Assembly: GCF_002028425.1 (NCBI RefSeq)
Contig: NZ_CP020042.1
Coordinates: 3,472,001-3,536,000 of the forward strand
Direction: 5' to 3'
DNA: 64,000 bases
DNA from: Streptomyces katrae
Lineage (GTDB): Bacteria > Actinomycetota > Actinomycetes > Streptomycetales > Streptomycetaceae
This document shows positions 4,795-61,654 of this stretch, piece by piece. Both the position numbers and the translations under genes were made by a program. Within the stretch, counting starts at the first letter, position 1, and every line of letters begins with the position of its first letter. Below the pieces are notes generated by a model that saw only the letters and a program-made list of their open reading frames with translations, was not told the origin of the DNA and made no database searches.

Positions 4795-4953
4795 ATGACC
4801 AGCCGCACCACCGAAGGCCACTCCCGGGGCGTACTCGGCATCGACACGTCGGACGGCCCCGAGCCGAGCCATGACCTCCTCGAGCGGGCGCGGCGCGGCT
4901 GGGTCCGCTTCGTCGCCTCCCTGGAGGAGGGGGCGACGTCCGATGAGCGCTGA
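4795..4953 (+). CDS. Small hypothetical protein, 52 aa
   Basis: Reads MTSRTTEGHSRGVLGIDTSD and ends VASLEEGATSDER. A purine-rich site (GGCAGGGAG, 4776-4784) precedes the ATG by about 10 nt. Composition is polar, with no signal or membrane segment. It overlaps the start of the next small gene by 11 bases, so the pair is probably translated together. I do not recognise the family. The divergent XRE regulator suggests a regulator with accessory small proteins. Confidence 0.55.
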   Translation: MTSRTTEGHSRGVLGIDTSDGPEPSHDLLERARRGWVRFVASLEEGATSDER

Positions 4954-5155
4954 GCGGTACGAATACGTGCCCCACCGCCTGCTGCGTCGTCGGGTGCGCG
5001 ACATCGCGTCGGGGGTGGAGGGGGAGCTGATGGCCGTGATCAACGAAGACGTCTCGAACTCACCGCTCCAGGAGCACTGGGTGGAACTGGCCTACATCCG
5101 CAACGCCTCAGGCCGCGAGTTCACCACAGCGGCGGCCAACGTCGTACCTGCCTGA
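4943..5155 (+). CDS. Small hypothetical protein, 70 aa
   Basis: Reads MSAERYEYVPHRLLRRRVRD and ends with ASGREFTTAAANVVPA. The GGAGGAGG run at 4923-4930 is a strong ribosome site 12 nt before the ATG. The gene overlaps the preceding 52-aa frame. It looks like a compact beta-rich cytosolic protein (HWVELAYIRNASGREFTT), but no family is recognised. It is the last gene before repeat array 1. Confidence 0.6.
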   Translation: MSAERYEYVPHRLLRRRVRDIASGVEGELMAVINEDVSNSPLQEHWVELAYIRNASGREFTTAAANVVPA

Positions 5156-5205
5156 CCCGGGGATGGGCGGCGGGACGGGGCCGGGGGAGGGCGGGGTCTG
5201 AGCCT

Positions 5206-5493
5206 GGCGGTCTCAGGGACGGGTTGGGGCTTTCCCGTCAGTCTCATCGTCCTTCCGCGTCGGGCCGCCCTGTCAAGGGCGCTCCTTCGTCGCGTCGCTT
5301 CGCGATCGCCTGCGGCGACCCTTGACAGGCCGTCCCGCCACGGAAAAACGAAGACTGCCGGGAAACCCCCAAACGAACGGGACGGACGTTCATAGGACAT
5401 ACGGCGGACTCAGCGACCAGCCGGGCGGTCGGGGGCCGCCACGCCAAGCGTCCGGGCCGACAGGATTGCCATCCGGGGCCGCGATCCGCGACA
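5206..5493 (+). repeat. Hairpin end element, copy A (left end of array 1)
   Basis: About 290 bp beginning GGCGGTCTCAGGGA and recurring in four places in this window (also 36452-36740 in the same orientation; 6245-6541 and 38142-38430 inverted). Its core, about 5226-5376, is a near-palindrome. The left arm (GGGGCTTTCCCGTCAGTCT and on) pairs with the right arm (ACTGCCGGGAAACCCCC) and closes on the 11-bp arms CCTGTCAAGGG (5269-5279) and CCCTTGACAGG (5319-5329). Such long inverted repeats without a transposase resemble a MITE or other passively mobilised hairpin. The copies differ by a few percent. Confidence 0.8.
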
Positions 5494-6244
5494 GATCGCT
5501 ACGCGCTCCTCCCGTCTCAGCGTCCGCCGCCTGTCTGGGGTCGTTGCCCGCACCCAAGGGCGACGGAATCGGTATCGGGGTCCGGCAGGCGCGGCAAATC
5601 GCTACGCGCTCCTCTCTCCTCGGCGTCCGGCGGCCGTCCGGGGTCTCTGCCCGCAGGAAAGGGCGACAGATTCGTCATCCAGGACTGGTGGGCGCGGCAG
5701 ATCGCTACGCGCTCCTCGGATTCCGGCGTCCGCGACCCGTCTGGGGCTGATGCCTGCACCCAAGGGCGACGGGATCGGCACCGGGGCACGGCAGGCGCCC
5801 CAGATCGCTACGCGCGCCTCGAATTCCGGCGTCCGACGACCGTCCGGGGCCGCTGCCCGCACGAAATGCCAACTGGGCCGTCATCCGGGGCCGATGGGCG
5901 CGGCAGATCGCTACGCGCGCCTCTCTCCTCGGCGTCCGCTGCCCGTCTGGGGCCGCTGCCTGCACCAAATGCCAACCAGAGGAACAACCGGAAGCAATAG
6001 GCGCCCAAGATCGCTACGCGCTGCCGAGATCTCGGCGTCCGGGCGCCGTCTTGGGCCGGTGGCGGCACCAAATGCCGGACCGCAGGGCATCCCGGCCCAA
6101 GACGGCCGCCGGACGCCGAGGAAACAGAAGCGCGTAGCGATCTTGGGCGCCTGGGGTGGCCGGATGGGCCTCTCATCGGCATTTGGTGCAGGTATCAGCC
6201 CCGACGGCCGTCGGACGCCGGGACGGGAGGAGCGCGTAGCGATC
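5494..6244. repeat. Repeat array 1: 103-bp units, six forward then two inverted
   Basis: The core GATCGCTACGCGCTCCTC begins at 5494, 5597, 5700, 5803, 5906 and 6009 (exactly 103 bp apart, minor variants). It then appears reversed, ending at 6142 and 6244. Each unit also has a second conserved block (CCGTCTGGGGC, then TGCCTGCACCAAATGCC) separated by variable sequence. A 103-bp period shifts the frame every unit, so the open frames here are not protein repeats. The turn from forward to inverted units (about 6001-6150) forms a large palindrome. I do not know a described family for it. Confidence 0.85.
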
Positions 6245-6541
6245 TGCGGCGGGACGGCCGGGCCCCCGGCCCCGGCGCTTGGGCCGAGGGCCCGGATGCC
6301 CGGCGAGGCGGCCCCCGACCTCCCCGCCTGGGCGCTGATCCCGCCGAATGTCCGACTCTGGACCGGACCGTTCCTCTGGGGGCTTCCCGGCAGTCCTTGT
6401 CTTTTCGGTCCGGGACGCCCTGTCAAGGGTCGCCGCAGGCGATCGCGCAGCGACGCGACGAAGGAGCGCCCTTGACAGGGCGGCCCGGACCGGAAGGACA
6501 GTGGGACTGACGGGAAGCCCCAGCCCCTCTCTGAGACCGCC
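6245..6541 (-). repeat. Hairpin end element, copy B (right end of array 1, inverted)
   Basis: An inverted, more diverged copy of the element at 5206-5493. It keeps the CCTGTCAAGGG / CCCTTGACAGG arms (about 6419-6478) and ends in CTGAGACCGCC at 6541. With copy A it brackets array 1 like a pair of terminal inverted repeats. Downstream, 6542-6750 is GC-rich non-coding DNA in which I see nothing further. Confidence 0.75.
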
Positions 6542-6750
6542 CGGCCGGGACCCCGCCCACCCCAGGTCCCGCCCGGCCCTCCGCTGCCGTCCGGCGGGGT
6601 CGGCGCCCCGCGCCGCCCCGCACCCGGGGAGGCGGGTGGGCAGCCACCGCCCGGCCCCCGGCCCGTCGAGGGGGAGATGGCGGGCCCGCGCCGCGAGCTC
6701 CGTATCGGCGGCGGGCCCACGCCGCGAGGGCCCGGGCCGCCGGCCCGGCC

Positions 6751-36451: not shown

Positions 36452-36740
36452 GGCGGTCTCAGGGATGGGTTGGGGCTTTCCCGTCAGTCTCATCGTCCTT
36501 CCACGTCGGGCCGCCCTGTCAAGGGCGCTCCTTCGTCGCGTCGCTTCGCGATCGCCTGCGGCGACCCTTGACAGGCCGTCCCGCCACGGAAAAACGAAGA
36601 CTGCCGGGAAACCCCCAAAGGAACGGGACGGACGTTCATTGGACATGCGGCCGTATCAGCGACCCTTCGGGGTCGTCGGGGGCTGGCAGACAGGGCATCC
36701 GGGCCGACATCGACCGTAATCGGGGCCGTAATCCGCGCCA
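36452..36740 (+). repeat. Hairpin end element, copy C (left end of array 2)
   Basis: Nearly identical to copy A and in the same orientation, beginning GGCGGTCTCAGGGAT. It has the same CCTGTCAAGGG ... CCCTTGACAGG arms and outer arms. Copies A and C are direct repeats about 31 kb apart, with housekeeping genes between them. Confidence 0.8.
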
Positions 36741-37150
36741 GATCGCTACGCGCTCCTCCCGTCTCAGCGTCTACCAGCCGCCTGGGGCCGCTGCCCGCAC
36801 CAAAGGCCGACAGAATCGTCATCCGGGGCCGGTGGGCGCCACAAATCGCTACGCGCTCCTCCCGTCCCGGCGTCCGACGGCGTCTTGGGCTGATACCTGC
36901 ACCAAATGACGAACAGGTCGGCATCCGGGCTTGCGGGCGCGCCAGATCGCTACGCGCTGCCGAGATTCCGGCGGCTGCCGGTCGTCCGGGGCTGTTGCCT
37001 GCACCAGAAGACGAACAGAGCAGTGTCCGGGGCACCCGGGCGCAACAGATCGCTACGCGCTCCTCTCGTCTCGGCGTCCGGCCGCCGTCTGGGGCTGATA
37101 TCCGCACCCAATGACGAACAGGGGGGCCTGACGAGGAGGTTGACCAGGCA
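36741..37150 (+). repeat. Repeat array 2, left arm: four forward 103-bp units
   Basis: The GATCGCTACGCGCTCCTC core begins at 36741, 36844, 36945 and 37048 (spacings 103, 101, 103), with the second block TGCACCAAATGACGAACAG in each unit. The fifth position is lost where the cargo gene region starts. The units match those of array 1 in length and in both conserved blocks. Confidence 0.85.
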
Positions 37151-37281: not shown

Positions 37282-37869
37282 ATGAACCAGCGAACCCGTA
37301 GAACCCTGTGCACCACCCTCATGGCCTGTTCACTCGCCGTCGGGCCGGTCACCGCCGCACGGGCCGTCAACGCCCCGGCGGCGGGTCCGTCCGGTTCGGA
37401 GTGCTTCGTCGAAGCCAAGGCGGGCGATGCGACGAAAGCGACGGTCACGGGCGGGGGCTTCGCAAAGGCCAAGGGAAAGGTCTTCCTCGACCAGACCGAC
37501 GGCGACGGCGGCGGCACCGCCACAGTGGGCGACGACGGTACGTTCACCTCCGGCGAGGTACCGGCCGGTAAATACGTCGCCTTCCAGCAAGGTGGTCCGC
37601 GCGTGAACTGCGTGGGTGGACAGGAAGCCCAGGACATCGTCAACCAGAAGCTGATCCTCTCCGAGCAGACCCGCGGCACCAACGAGGGCTGGGCCCAGGG
37701 GAGGAAGCTGGCCAAGTCCGGTGCCTGTGACGCGAAAGCCGAACCGCGGACGCCGAACCTTCATGGGCTTGCCGCCGATTCAGAGGCCCAGAAGAAGGCC
37801 GAAGAGGCCTACAAGAACGCGTACTCCGCCTCCTTCGGCAAAGCCATCGACTTCTACTGCCACCACTAG
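37282..37869 (+). CDS. Secreted protein inside repeat array 2, unknown
   Basis: 195 aa with a clear signal peptide (TTLMACSLAVGPVTAARA, cleavage near residue 28). The mature part has a beta-rich segment (ATVTGGGFAKAKGKVFLDQT, DDGTFTSGEVPAGKYVAF) with cysteines in GSECFVEA and RVNCVGGQ, then a helical end (EEAYKNAYSASFGKAIDFYC). The ATG at 37282 follows GTGAGGAA. Third positions are less GC-biased than in neighbouring genes. No family recognised. It sits where the 103-bp units change from forward to inverted, as though carried by the repeat structure. Confidence 0.8.
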   Translation: MNQRTRRTLCTTLMACSLAVGPVTAARAVNAPAAGPSGSECFVEAKAGDATKATVTGGGFAKAKGKVFLDQTDGDGGGTATVGDDGTFTSGEVPAGKYVAFQQGGPRVNCVGGQEAQDIVNQKLILSEQTRGTNEGWAQGRKLAKSGACDAKAEPRTPNLHGLAADSEAQKKAEEAYKNAYSASFGKAIDFYCHH

Positions 37870-37874
37870 CCGGT

Positions 37875-38141
37875 CGGGTGCGGATATCGGCCCCAGACGG
37901 CGGCCGGACGCCGAACGAGAGGAGCGCGTAGCGATCTGGCGCGCCCGCAAGCCCGGATGCCGACCTGTTCGTCATTTGGTGCAGGTATCAGCCCAAGACG
38001 GCCGTCAGACGCCGGGACGGGAGGAGCGCGTAGCGATTTGTGGCGCCCCCCGGCCCCGGATGACGATCCTGTCGGCCTTTGGTGCGGGCAGCGGCCCCAG
38101 GCGGCTGGTAGACGCTGAGACGGGAGGAGCGCGTAGCGATC
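37875..38141 (-). repeat. Repeat array 2, right arm: three inverted 103-bp units
   Basis: Inverted cores end at 37936, 38038 and 38141 (spacings 102 and 103). The first starts directly after the cargo gene stop at 37869. Together with the left arm it forms a split inverted array around the gene. Confidence 0.85.
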
Positions 38142-38430
38142 TGTTGCGGATTACGGCCCCGGATGGCAATCCTGTCGGCCCGGATGCCTGGCGAGGCGGC
38201 CCCCGACGACCCCGAAGGGTCGCTGATACGGCCGCATGTCCAATGAACGTCCGTCCCGTTCCTTTGGGGGTTTCCCGGCAGTCTTCGTTTTTCCGTGGCG
38301 GGACGGCCTGTCAAGGGTCGCCGCAGGCGATCGCGAAGCGACGCGACGAAGGAGCGCCCTTGACAGGGTGGCCCGACGCGGAAGGACGATGAGACTGACG
38401 GAAAAGCCCCAACCCCTCCCTGAGACCGCC
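38142..38430 (-). repeat. Hairpin end element, copy D (right end of array 2, inverted)
   Basis: Inverted near-identical copy of copy C, with the CCTGTCAAGGG / CCCTTGACAGG stem at about 38308-38370 and ending TGAGACCGCC at 38430. It closes array 2. Beyond it, 38431-38525 is C-rich non-coding DNA with nothing recognisable. Confidence 0.8.
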
Positions 38431-46722: not shown

Positions 46723-48504
46723 GTGCTCTTCCTCTACTGCGTGCTGCTCGTCAGCTGCCTGATCATGCTGGTCGCGGGCATCGTGGAGCAGCGTCGGCAC
46801 TTCGCCAACCTGGACCGGATACCGAACCGGGTGCTGGTCAACGGCATCCGCGGCAAGAGCTCCATCACCCGGCTGTGCGCGGGCGCGCTGCGCGGCGGCG
46901 GTCTGACGACGGTCGCCAAGACCACCGGCACCGCGGCCCGGTTCATCCACCCGGACGCCACCGAGGAGCCGGTCTACCGCAAGTTCGGCATCGCGAACGT
47001 GGTCGAGCAGATCGGCATCGTGCGGCGCGCGGCCGCCTACCGGCCGGACGCGCTGGTCATGGAGTGCATGGCGGTCATGCCGGCGCTCCAGGAGATCAAC
47101 CAGTCCAAGCTGATCCAGTCGACCATCGGCGTCCTGTGCAACGTCCGCGAGGACCACGTCGCCGAGATGGGCCCGACCCTGGACGACATCGCGCGCTCGC
47201 TGTCGCGGTCGATGCCGTACGGGGGGATCTGCGTGACCGCCGAAAAGGAGCGCTTCGACGTGCTCCAGGAGGAGGCGGACGCACGGGACTGCGAGCTCGT
47301 CTACGCGGACCCGGAGACGGTCTCGGACGAGGAGCTGCGCGGGTTCAGCTGGTTCACGTTCAAGGAGAACGTGGCGATCGCGCTCACCGTCGCCGAGCTC
47401 CTGGGCGTGGACCGGGCCACGGCCCTGAAGGGCATGTACGAGGCCCCGCCGGACCCGGGCGTGCTGTCGGTGGAGCGGTACCTGGCCCCGGGCGGCAAGC
47501 GGCTGCGGTTCGCGAACGTCTTCGCGGCGAACGACCCCGAGTCCACGCTGATGAACATCAACCAGCTGCTGGACCTGGGCGCGGTGGACCGCCCCCTGAA
47601 CGTGGTGATCAACTGTCGGCCCGACCGGGTCGAGCGCAACGGGCAGATGGGCGCGATCGTTCCCGATCTGCGGCCGGACCGGGTGTTCGTGATCGGGCAC
47701 CCGGCGAAGAGCGCCATCGACGCGATCCCGGCCGAGTGGCGCGACCGCGCGGTGGACCTCGGCGGCGAGCAGCGCGACGGCGAGGAGTTCATGCACGAGC
47801 TGCTCGGCCACCTCGGCGAGAGCTCCTCGCTCGTGGCCATCGGCAACATCCACGGCCAGGGCGAGGTGCTGCTGGAGCACCTCGCGGAGCTGCCGCCGGA
47901 CGAGGCGGAGGACGCCCCCGCGTCGGCGCCGGCCGGGGAGGAGCCCCCGGCCCCGGTCTTCGGCCGGCCCTTCGACCCGTACGCGGACGACCCGCACGGC
48001 CCGGACCCGTACGCGGGGTTCCCGGGCGGGGAACAGCCGTATGCGGGCGCGGCGTACGGCCAGGTCCCGCACGCCCAGGGCCCGCACGCCCAGGGCCCGC
48101 ACGCCCAGGGCCCGCACGGCCAAGGCCCGCACGCGCAGACCGCGTACGGGCAGGCCCCTCACGCACAGGCCCCGTACGGGCAGGCCCCTCACGCGCAGAC
48201 CGCGTACGGGCAGGCCCCTCACGCACAGGCCCCGTACGGGCAGCAGGTCTACGGGCAGCGGCCCGCGCAGGACCCGTACGCGTACGGGCAGCCGCCGCAG
48301 CCCCGCCCGCAGGCAGCCCACCCGTACCCGCAGCAGTCTCAGCCGCCCTCCGGCCCCCGCCCCGGGGAGCCGTACGGCGGTGGCGGGCCGCCGCAGCGGC
48401 CCGCCGACCCGTACGGGATCGCCGCCGCCACCCCCGTACCGGCCTGGCCGCAGCAGGCACCGCAGCCGCAGCCGCACCCGTACACCCCAGGAGAGCCCCG
48501 TTGA
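46723..48504 (+). CDS. pgsB: Poly-gamma-glutamate synthase subunit PgsB (CapB) with a long repeat tail
   Basis: PgsB is the Mur-ligase-like ATPase that activates glutamate for the polymer. Residues 1-~390 match PgsB: a membrane anchor (LFLYCVLLVSCLIMLVAGIV), the phosphate-binding VNGIRGKSSITRLCAG, AKTTGTAARFIHPDATEEPV, MECMAVMPALQEINQSKLIQ, NVREDHVAEMGPTLDDIA and NCRPDRVERNGQMG. The family ends at ~393 aa in Bacillus; here about 200 extra residues of Pro/Gln/Tyr/His-rich repeats follow (YGQAPHAQ, QGPHAQ units). The GTG at 46723 follows GGAAGGAACTG. The stop overlaps the pgsC start codon. Confidence 0.92.
   Translation: MLFLYCVLLVSCLIMLVAGIVEQRRHFANLDRIPNRVLVNGIRGKSSITRLCAGALRGGGLTTVAKTTGTAARFIHPDATEEPVYRKFGIANVVEQIGIVRRAAAYRPDALVMECMAVMPALQEINQSKLIQSTIGVLCNVREDHVAEMGPTLDDIARSLSRSMPYGGICVTAEKERFDVLQEEADARDCELVYADPETVSDEELRGFSWFTFKENVAIALTVAELLGVDRATALKGMYEAPPDPGVLSVERYLAPGGKRLRFANVFAANDPESTLMNINQLLDLGAVDRPLNVVINCRPDRVERNGQMGAIVPDLRPDRVFVIGHPAKSAIDAIPAEWRDRAVDLGGEQRDGEEFMHELLGHLGESSSLVAIGNIHGQGEVLLEHLAELPPDEAEDAPASAPAGEEPPAPVFGRPFDPYADDPHGPDPYAGFPGGEQPYAGAAYGQVPHAQGPHAQGPHAQGPHGQGPHAQTAYGQAPHAQAPYGQAPHAQTAYGQAPHAQAPYGQQVYGQRPAQDPYAYGQPPQPRPQAAHPYPQQSQPPSGPRPGEPYGGGGPPQRPADPYGIAAATPVPAWPQQAPQPQPHPYTPGEPR
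48069..48243 (+). repeat. Tandem repeats within the pgsB tail
   Basis: Three to four copies of the 15-bp unit CACGCCCAGGGCCCG are followed by alternating units of about 30 bp (CCGTACGGGCAGGCCCCTCA and similar) up to about 48243. The unit lengths are multiples of three, so copy-number changes keep the frame. Confidence 0.75.
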
Positions 48505-60056: not shown

Positions 60057-61654
60057 CGGGCGCCGCCGGCCGCCGGGAGGGCCACGGCCCGCTGCAGGAC
60101 CTCGGCGGCCAGCCGGACGGCGGCCTGCCGGGTGCCTTCGCCGAGGAGGTCGGTACGGACGGCGCCGCCGGAGGCGAGGTGGCGGTCGTAGGGCAGGACG
60201 ACGACGCCGGCGCCGGTGGCGGCGAGCCTCTCGGTGGCCTTGGCGAGGTCGACGGCCGGGTGCGGGGACTGCACGGTGAGCACGACGACCGTGCGGGGCA
60301 GGACGGGCACGGGCAGGGAGGCGAGCCAGTCGAGGACGGCGTGGGTGGAGACGAGGCCCTCGGCGGTGGCGGGGGTGGTGAGGACGCGGGCGTGCGCGGT
60401 GTCGAGGGCGGTCCGGGCGACCTCGCCGGGAAGGGTCTCGCAGTCGACGACGGTGACGCCGAAGTAGCGGCGCAGGGCGACCATGACGGTCCGGTAGGTG
60501 GCGACGTCGACCTGGGCGCCGATGCGGCCCTGGCTGCCGGGCAGCAGCCAGCCGCCGTCGGGGAGCGGGACGAGGTAGCCGGTGATGTCGGTGAGCTGCA
60601 TGGAGGGGCGGACGATCTGGGCGAGGTCGCCGCAGGTCCAGCGCAGGGACTCGACACCGAGCCGGACGGGCAGGGTGCCGAGGGCGGCGTCGGCCTCCAG
60701 GGTGAGCACCGGGTCGTGGCGGAAGTGGTTGTAGGTGCGGCTGAGGAGGGCGGTGACGGTGGTCTTGCCGGAGCCGCCGCGGATGCTGGTGACGACGATG
60801 TGCCGCCCGGTGGTGACGGGCTGCTGCACCTGAGCGGCGAGCCCGGTCTCGGCGGCGACGGCCTTGGCGGCGGAGGACCCGAGGGCCCCGCGCAGGGTCC
60901 GCAGGGTGCGCCGCATCAGGGGGTCCCCGTGCCGGGGCCGCCCGAGGGGCGCGCCGGCCCCGAGGACGGGCACGGTCTCGGGTGCGGCCCGGCGGCTGGG
61001 GCGGGGCTGCGGCTGGGGCTGCTGGTAGGCGGGCTGCTGGTGACGCGGCCCGGGGACGGGCGCTGCGGCCTCCTCCCACGGCCCGGCACCGGCGGCGGAC
61101 GGCGCGTACGCCTGGCCGGGGGCCGGGTACGCCTCGCCCGGCCGGGGGCCCTGGCCGGGACCCGCTTGCGGGACGGGCCCGCCAGGCGCCGGATACGGCC
61201 GGCCGGCGGATGCCGGGAAGGCCTCGCCCGGGCGGGGGCCCTGGCCGGGGGCCGGGTACGCCTCGCCCGGCCGGGGGCCCTGGCCGGGACCCGCCTGCGG
61301 GACGGGCCCGCCGGGCGCCGGATACGGCCGGCCGGCGGACGCCGGGAAGGCCTCGCCCGGGCGGGGGCCCTGGCCGGGGGCCGGGGCGCCCGGGCGGGGG
61401 CCCTGGCCGGGACCCCGGTCCGCGACCGCCCCGCCGGGGGCCTCGTACGCCTGGCCGGGGGCGGGGCCGCCCGAGGCCGGGAAGGCATCGGCCTGAGCCG
61501 GGTGGCCGGTCTGCGGCGGTACGGGGGCGGCGGGCGGGGCGGTCTCCGTCCAGCGGCCGTCACCGGTCGGCGGGGTCGCGGCGGAGGGGCCCGTGCCCGT
61601 CAGTTCACCGAGAACGCCGGCCTGCCAGTCGTCCTGGCGGTTCGTGTCTGACAT
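60053..61654 (-). CDS. MinD/ParA-like ATPase of the type VII locus with repeat-rich N-terminus
   Basis: 533 aa. Residues ~1-235 are Pro/Gly/Ala-rich disorder with a duplicated 43-aa unit. The C-terminal 290 residues are a MinD/SRP-like ATPase with deviant Walker A TSIRGGSGKTTVTALLSRTY (~290), TLEADAALGTLPVRLG and VVDCETLPGEVARTALDTA. Such ATPases lie beside eccC and eccD in Streptomyces ESX loci and may position or energise the machinery. Start ATG 61654 (MSDTNRQDDWQAG); it lies 16 bp after the eccD stop. Confidence 0.9.
   Translation of the reverse strand: MSDTNRQDDWQAGVLGELTGTGPSAATPPTGDGRWTETAPPAAPVPPQTGHPAQADAFPASGGPAPGQAYEAPGGAVADRGPGQGPRPGAPAPGQGPRPGEAFPASAGRPYPAPGGPVPQAGPGQGPRPGEAYPAPGQGPRPGEAFPASAGRPYPAPGGPVPQAGPGQGPRPGEAYPAPGQAYAPSAAGAGPWEEAAAPVPGPRHQQPAYQQPQPQPRPSRRAAPETVPVLGAGAPLGRPRHGDPLMRRTLRTLRGALGSSAAKAVAAETGLAAQVQQPVTTGRHIVVTSIRGGSGKTTVTALLSRTYNHFRHDPVLTLEADAALGTLPVRLGVESLRWTCGDLAQIVRPSMQLTDITGYLVPLPDGGWLLPGSQGRIGAQVDVATYRTVMVALRRYFGVTVVDCETLPGEVARTALDTAHARVLTTPATAEGLVSTHAVLDWLASLPVPVLPRTVVVLTVQSPHPAVDLAKATERLAATGAGVVVLPYDRHLASGGAVRTDLLGEGTRQAAVRLAAEVLQRAVALPAAGGAR
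61112..61369 (-). repeat. 129-bp tandem duplication in the MinD-like gene
   Basis: The segment 61112-61240 is repeated at 61241-61369 with only a few mismatches. 129 bp is 43 codons, so the frame is kept. A partial third copy follows from 61370. The unit encodes GQGPRPGEAFPASAGRPYPA and similar. Confidence 0.85.

Follow-up and report, generated by a model that had tools for sequence, protein, structure and literature searches.

Foldback-like elements with cloverleaf hairpin ends, tandem units and variable cargo in Streptomyces katrae

Introduction

REP, BIME and REPIN palindromes are dispersed, intergenic and arranged as inverted pairs, and the RAYT enzymes are Y1 transposases. MITEs and mobile insertion cassettes are non-autonomous, are bounded by terminal inverted repeats and may carry genes without carrying a transposase. 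The single-strand origin (sso) of rolling-circle replicons is a non-coding hairpin that is active only when single stranded and that primes the complementary strand. Among eukaryotes, Foldback (FB) transposons such as Tm1 have, according to excerpts of one account, long composite inverted ends built of several domains and variable tandem repeats; their centre is variable and contains genes in some, and Tm1-type elements are described there as hot spots of ectopic recombination (PMC3169594). For Streptomyces itself, passages of a paper on telomere palindromes bound by Tap describe hairpins of folded single-stranded DNA whose GCA (GNA-type) loops are closed by sheared G-A pairs, and liken these palindromes to parvovirus ends (PMC4513846). 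Passages of an article on AICEs mention a cluster of mdp, nud and xre that is common to several of these elements, in which Nudix genes are frequent (PMC3218068).

Here we describe a family of elements first seen in a window of 64,000 nucleotides from Streptomyces katrae (a window position is the C1 position minus 3472000). The family is real, structured, dispersed and gene-carrying, and it is matched to no described class; in the open-access literature, judged by titles and abstracts, we found no recognisable description of it. As with Foldback transposons, 21 elements in S. katrae combine long inverted ends with 1 to 6 internal units per arm, and insertion polymorphism occurs between species. 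Unlike those transposons, the elements are bacterial and have hairpin-tipped ends, and neither a transposase-bearing copy, in the cargo examined, nor, by eye, a target duplication was found. They share with REP, BIME and REPIN sequences the form of dispersed inverted palindromes, but their arms measure some 300 to 900 bp and come with unit arrays and cargo. In contrast to MITEs and mobile insertion cassettes, their ends consist of cloverleaf hairpins followed by direct arrays; no duplication was seen, and a parent insertion sequence was not found. A related cloverleaf stands beside repSA, xis or int of pSAM2-type AICEs in some genomes, and Nudix, XRE and HD gene types are shared, as far as the AICE passages go (PMC3218068), whereas in the foldback elements we saw no replication, transfer or integration genes and there are two inverted hairpins instead of one. 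The hairpins described here share GNA-type loops with the telomere palindromes, but they lie at internal chromosomal sites and the palindromes at replicon ends. The tip may also be likened to an sso, which it fits by position and structure only.

Results

The window contains two elements (Table 1). In element 1, the exact unit core, the 12-mer ATCGCTACGCGC, starts on the + strand at 5495, 5598, 5701, 5804, 5907 and 6010, giving five steps of exactly 103 bp each, and on the - strand at 6130 and 6232, a step of 102; the tally of seven units for this element counts one one-mismatch match. The termini are GGCGGTCTCAG at 5206 and its inverse copy at 6541, and inside them an inverted repeat of 199 nt (5227-5425 / 6323-6521, 83% complementary) includes the hairpins at 5244-5354 and 6398-6500. 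The sequence-only reading, made before this analysis, had described six units at exact 103-bp steps, two inverted units, bracketing inverted hairpin elements and an alternation of conserved with variable blocks. Each of these held, with the arms ending to the base at 5206 and 6541 and with the first ~60 bp of the unit better kept than the rest. The left hairpin folds better than 200 of 200 shuffles (z of -4.7 as DNA and -5.3 as RNA); one unit folded alone as DNA does no better than shuffles (z +0.6).

Table 1. Coordinates of the two elements in the window
Feature	Positions	Strand	Remark
Element 1, left hairpin arm (H+), terminus GGCGGTCTCAGGGA at 5206	5206..5425	+	Closest other copy stops matching at 5206
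Element 1, left hairpin cloverleaf tip	5257..5341	+	TCAAGGG/CCCTTGA stem, three mini-hairpins
Element 1, six direct units	5487..6060	+	Period 103; sixth retains only conserved ~60-bp half
Element 1, central spacer	6061..6091	none	Cargo-free element
Element 1, two inverted units	6092..6251	-	
Element 1, right hairpin arm (H-)	6322..6541	-	Cloverleaf core ~6407-6491; terminus 6541
Element 2, left hairpin arm	36452..36671	+	
Element 2, four direct units	36734..37121	+	Cores 36742, 36845, 36946, 37049
Element 2, cargo gene	37282..37869	+	195 aa; signal-peptide-like start (by eye)
Element 2, three inverted units	37877..38180	-	Cores 37924, 38026, 38129
Element 2, right hairpin arm	38211..38430	-	98% identical to element 2 left arm

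The same reading had judged the array to be neither coding nor a CRISPR, and we agree. A codon-model gene caller called zero genes in 5206-6541, where the listed open reading frames are mechanical, and a period of 103 with inverted halves suits neither class; against a CRISPR, moreover, double units are 68-77% alike to the reference and the second half of the unit is conserved too. An Rfam scan returned 0 matches at the gathering score across the window and nothing near threshold by E-value over 5100-6650. A viral origin was discarded after a phage search without a match and the finding of no exact 24-mer in viral_contigs. Pfam and NCBIfam gave no match for the cargo protein of element 2. To the left of element 1 lie a gene for an NsdA-family TPR regulator (NF053720; 3302-4675, -) and a small conserved gene (4871-5155, +) with relatives inside the G205 element and in L032. 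Two other tandem repeats in the window, at 61111-61415 (129 bp) and 48053-48243 (60 bp), are strong, have periods that are multiples of three and are probably coding.

Many hairpin-bounded copies, which the earlier reading had named as support for its view, were found. The S. katrae genome (G000) has at least 33 places with element parts, namely 21 two-armed elements, one of them on the 349-kb contig C2, two solo hairpins (L033, L054) and 10 single arms or fragments. These places come from hairpin, terminus and unit searches (29 stretches fetched in addition to the two sites in the window); the hairpin search scored 40 of 84 candidates, and hairpins without units may be missed. Exact copies of ATCGCTACGCGC number 150 (76 + 74), against 0 + 0 for the backward-read pattern, and all 150 fall within the fetched stretches. 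Two-armed elements run from a hairpin through direct units, a centre and inverted units to an inverted hairpin, apart from L031, which has kept its left terminus without the hairpin, and L056, which has an additional inverted unit near its left arm. Neighbouring units are spaced by 103 bp in 73 of 99 cases and by 102 bp in 19.

The centre is either a spacer of ~32 bp or ~0.6-2.6 kb of varying DNA, usually with genes. Ten of the 21 two-armed elements are cargo-free, a count that leaves out L059 and the mixed L056. Nine of them have a separation of exactly 120 bp between the starts of the innermost + and - cores, and L058, the tenth, deviates through a mismatch in its last + core; the short centre is inverted in L052 and L056. 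Compared with the unit consensus, innermost units (n = 42) have kept positions 1-60 (mean identity 0.68-0.97) and lost positions 61-96 (0.38-0.45), whereas the other units (n = 102) have kept both parts, the second at 0.71-0.82; a few wrong innermost assignments are included in this comparison. Since the innermost units keep only positions 1-60, the centre, whether spacer or cargo, begins at about one point of the unit. By eye, the stop codon of the cargo gene immediately follows the GGGCTGG of a unit in L048 and L049, and the frame of a small gene extends into a unit in L032. Within single elements, the identity between the left and the right hairpin is 75-98% (median 0.85, 17 elements), and the arms of one element can have different closest relatives.

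The hairpin, of ~150 nt, is imperfect and has a branched tip, in which three mini-hairpins sit on a TCAAGGG/CCCTTGA stem. Among 47 aligned tips, 26 of which came from a pattern that fixes most of two mini-hairpins, the 16 tip pairs hold in 99.1% of 751 cells, with 7 cells unpaired. Seven pairs vary on both sides, accounting for 24 cells against 3.5 in shuffles and 0-5 in slid controls, and none of the tip pairs shows a one-sided change. Tips collected with a covariance model add more TCCAGGG/CCCTGGA rows and a TCAC-TNC-GTGA version. The triloop TNC is present in mini-hairpin 2 of 99 of 102 tips and in mini-hairpin 3 of 91 of 102, its T and C being fixed wherever the pattern search found the tip; on the opposite strand it reads C(GNA)G. 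Across 53 aligned hairpins, A-C mismatches, which are G-T when read on the other strand, are more numerous than G-T mismatches (134 against 55), an excess that depends on the method and hints weakly that the other strand may be the folded one.

Similarity between copies ends sharply at the element ends. The 50 ends compared give 88 pairs with an identity of 95% or more across the first 200 bases inside the element; beyond the end, their identity is 0.685, 0.690 and 0.654 (outer 20, 50 and 51-150 bases), close to the 0.661, 0.674 and 0.644 of the other 1137 pairs, and the outer 20 bases are at least 85% shared in 9 of the 88 and 61 of the 1137. Arms that are 95-99.5% alike thus stand in unrelated flanks, and because relatives, in addition, lack elements at the same sites, the sequences support the view that the elements are mobile or once were; their structure is supported as well. 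The outer ~60 bp at most ends form a degenerate inverted repeat too; these flanks may belong to the element, whose true end would then be further outward. Flanks are only slightly more alike within than between elements (0.70 versus 0.66; permutation p 0.06, 0.03 and 0.02 for 30, 45 and 60 bp), and we dropped the idea of a distinct difference. No target-site duplication was seen by eye in 20 flank pairs, whose ends are placed provisionally. A pattern meant to reveal empty palindromic targets, SGGGRCCWCACTC, occurs at 14 places, 11 of which adjoin known ends, the others being C1 4428722, 4825965 and 5176108. A second degenerate repeat (TGCCCACCCGCC, CCGGGTGCGGGTGGG) is often present ~50-90 bp beyond the ends, including outside 5206 and 6541.

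Element 1 itself looks like a chimera of two other copies. Window 5206-6246 is 96.5% identical to L045 2364-3404, the match beginning exactly at 5206, and window 6203-6543 is 97% identical to L044, so that the left part would be closest to one copy and the right part to another.

The sequence-only reading had named insertion polymorphism between close relatives as support for its view, and copies at one site in all relatives, with ordinary decay and no bounding hairpins, as grounds against it. Most of the relatives examined lack an element, the polymorphism at both sites being one between species. The close relative G205 has elements at both, which agrees in part with the grounds against, but they have hairpins. 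At site 1, that of element 1, all 20 fetched relatives match both flanking genes and four (G205, G042, G301, G259) have hairpin or unit matches; inside the G205 element are a HAD-type gene and a small gene whose protein is 75% identical over 68 aa to that of the small gene left of element 1. At site 2, that of element 2, 16 relatives were fetched, eight with both flanks, and seven of these eight are devoid of hairpin or unit matches. In G038, which has many elements elsewhere, the flanking matches lie 44 bases apart, the intergenic sequence being too diverged for an exact junction. G205 has at site 2 an element with different cargo, a Nudix gene 81% identical (DNA) to one that adjoins a left arm of S. 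katrae at 2.79 Mb, and the order hairpin-unit-gene is the same in both. At the site of L044, G205 has no hairpin. Since both window sites are occupied in G205, some copies seem to have been inherited in place. The G205 hairpins are 0.88-0.92 alike among themselves and 0.78-0.85 alike to the two window elements; this grouping, which follows the genome and not the site, is as compatible with concerted evolution at old sites as with new insertions.

With at most 10 candidates scored per genome, a hairpin match by DNA was obtained in 18 of 81 genomes, S. katrae included. A pattern scan for tips gave at least 119 loci. Among the matches listed (80 loci), carriers are mainly Streptomyces, for example S. 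lavendulae, S. virginiae, S. goshikiensis and S. xanthophaeus, with scattered carriers in other actinobacteria, and in each of the 16 loci with two matches a + match precedes a - match at a distance of 0.7-3.5 kb. Of the class, 394 genomes were searched with the covariance model of the tip; 87 have a match, and they represent 30 of 137 genera. Plasmids also carry copies; two of them, L080 and L081 (NZ_CP108163, NZ_CP034352), have the same genes beside the arm, for GNAT, 4a-hydroxytetrahydrobiopterin dehydratase and a Tat-signal protein.

The cargo is diverse. Pfam identified Nudix proteins in L034, L040, L042 and G205 site 2; GntR-UTRA in L038; SDR and MerR in L047; a flavoprotein in L039; glyoxalases in L048, L049 and L059, with DUF4097 in L048 and a mycothiol transferase in L059; HTH_3 in L037; methyltransferases in L034 and L038; and an HD protein in L083. 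The loci L034, L037, L038, L040 and L083 are single-armed or open-ended, and their genes are therefore beside an arm and not proven to be inside an element; G042_W1 and G259_W1 are left out of these calls. Pfam had no match for 6 of 20 and 2 of 10 proteins in two scanned sets, and it lent no support to DUF397 as the identity of a protein of ~70-95 aa. Four Nudix, one HTH_3 and one HD protein inside or beside arms correspond to gene types of the AICE mdp-nud-xre cluster, as presented in passages of the AICE article (PMC3218068). No transposase appeared in the listed cargo open reading frames or in the 24 proteins, from cargo or from beside arms, that were compared with Pfam, and no repSA, FtsK-like transfer gene or xis/int was seen in element cargo.

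In some non-Streptomyces actinobacteria the tip adjoins repSA, xis or int of pSAM2-like AICEs. In a comparison of 24 locus groups that are not of the S. lavendulae type, no other protein next to tips is shared as widely as RepSA (PF20199, E 1e-90 to 1e-107), which was confirmed in five groups (G080, G684, G445, G522 and a Nocardioides MAG). Tip loci with RepSA have an FtsK-like, HTH_17 or integrase gene nearby, and the tip has repSA on one side and int on the other in L272, L276 and L277 (the int of L272 by eye). Listed tips within 10 kb of a RepSA match make up 4 of 4 in G522, 2 of 2 in G445, 4 of 6 in G684 and 1 of 5 in G080, together 11 of 17 listed places; G499 (0 of 4) and G543 (0 of 5) bring the figure for all six non-Streptomyces genomes to 11 of 26. 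Units were not found at the non-Streptomyces loci, those in AICEs included. G543 (L266-L270) has 11 tip matches in a 4.7-Mb genome and no RepSA match.

Within Streptomyces, RepSA has no match in S. katrae, none is near the tips listed in G205, and its presence in 12 of 13 hairpin-bearing and 12 of 13 hairpin-free genomes gives no separation. Y1_Tnp, the RAYT domain, has 0 matches in S. katrae and occurs in 2 of 13 hairpin-bearing and 1 of 13 hairpin-free genomes; its absence from S. katrae and from 11 of the 13 hairpin-bearing genomes led us to reject a RAYT as the mover. The Y2 transposase of IS91/ISCR was matched in 0 of 26 genomes, its control likewise matching nowhere.

Discussion

We tentatively favor an account in which element 1 is a cargo-free member of a non-autonomous Streptomyces foldback family, with ends descended from a single-strand hairpin of the AICE type, and in which this family owes its spread to the rolling-circle functions of AICEs or to recombination of arm with arm. 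The tip would act in the form of a folded DNA single strand, comparable to a single-strand origin or another single-stranded site of a rolling-circle AICE, and two inverted tips could let AICE functions copy or move the enclosed DNA in trans. We infer that the enzyme of movement is of AICE type; the factor acting in trans might be a RepSA-type initiator, or else host priming on the displaced strand. Several results count against this account: the lack of a RepSA match in S. katrae, the equal frequency of RepSA in Streptomyces with and without a hairpin match, the figure of 11 of 26 listed tips near RepSA over the six non-Streptomyces genomes, its confirmation in 5 of 24 locus groups, the missing units at AICE loci, the lack of a target-site duplication by eye, the possibly more distant true end and the grouping of G205 hairpins by genome. 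Units may serve as protein-binding or recombination sites for swapping the centre, while homologous recombination between arms would shuffle ends and cargo and homogenise copies within a genome. A bolder version, which we consider unlikely, makes the family a gene-capture element with parvovirus- or telomere-like end hairpins, copied by AICE rolling-circle functions as a self-folding single strand, in which the ~60-bp unit cores would be exchange sites for the insertion and swapping of cargo genes, much as integron cassettes are exchanged but without an integron.

A strong rival to a mobile foldback family is that of inherited sites with gene conversion, in which these are old, mostly immobile inverted-repeat loci, recombination platforms and not transposons, where copies are kept alike and cargo is exchanged through homologous recombination of one arm with another. 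This is a serious possibility, although we doubt it. It would account for the occupation of both window sites in G205 with arms grouping by genome, for arms of one element with different closest relatives (L045 on the left of element 1 and L044 on the right), and for one site with different cargo, as at site 2 in G205 and S. katrae. Conversion tracts should end variably, however, whereas the outer bases of most near-identical pairs are as unlike as those of random pairs; the L044 site without a hairpin in G205, the patchy distribution and the plasmid copies also speak against it.

Two further alternatives were weighed. That the hairpins are a family of structured non-coding RNAs or transcription terminators, working in the transcripts of preceding genes, is improbable. 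Their ends do lie 15-257 bp downstream of a stop codon in 21 of 23 two-armed or solo elements (by our own gene caller), and the hairpin is highly stable as RNA, but tip pairs vary without the one-sided (G-U) changes, the GNA loops are on the complementary DNA strand, Rfam has no match, arms are inverted around cargo and related tips occur in AICE modules. On these grounds we regard as unsupported the second half of the proposal, in the sequence-only reading, of a composite mobile or structured-RNA element, and retain the first, a mobile type with structured ends, many copies and presence or absence between relatives. Nor did the neighboring genes yield a strong rule, being convergent at 9 of these 23 elements, tandem at 11, divergent at 2 and undecided at 1, so a preference for convergent genes was abandoned. 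Least credible to us, and very improbable, are arrays that organise the chromosome or bind proteins and that are maintained for a function in the host, their units being phased at close to ten helical turns: the spacing of 103 or 102 bp in 92 of 99 neighboring units and the position of 29 of 32 chromosomal places within 2.0-5.7 Mb of 7.5 Mb (KS p 0.047, the interval having been chosen afterwards) would suit them, but the unit step in G042 is 64 bp, 63 of the 81 genomes have no hairpin match by DNA and about half of the elements have cargo in the centre.

If the foldback account is true, bacteria possess elements of the foldback type that bring genes along while lacking their own transposase, and the hairpin tip is an unrecognised cis-acting single-strand DNA site common to AICEs and chromosomal repeats across actinobacteria. 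The S. katrae genome offers some thirty natural replicates for testing element movement and gene pickup, and the repeats may partly account for assembly breaks in related genomes.

Several further arrangements were observed. In G079 and G061 (L125, L135) the tip is part of direct repeats of 340-500 bp between small genes, with no inverted pairs. The centre of a G038 element contains a 20-bp perfect palindrome around TTT (L084:2900-3010), and that of L099 holds another inverted pair. In contigs of Alphaproteobacteria (L182:4327, L237:1570, L246:1403), the tip lies ~330-370 bp from a gene that we take to encode an IS110-like transposase.
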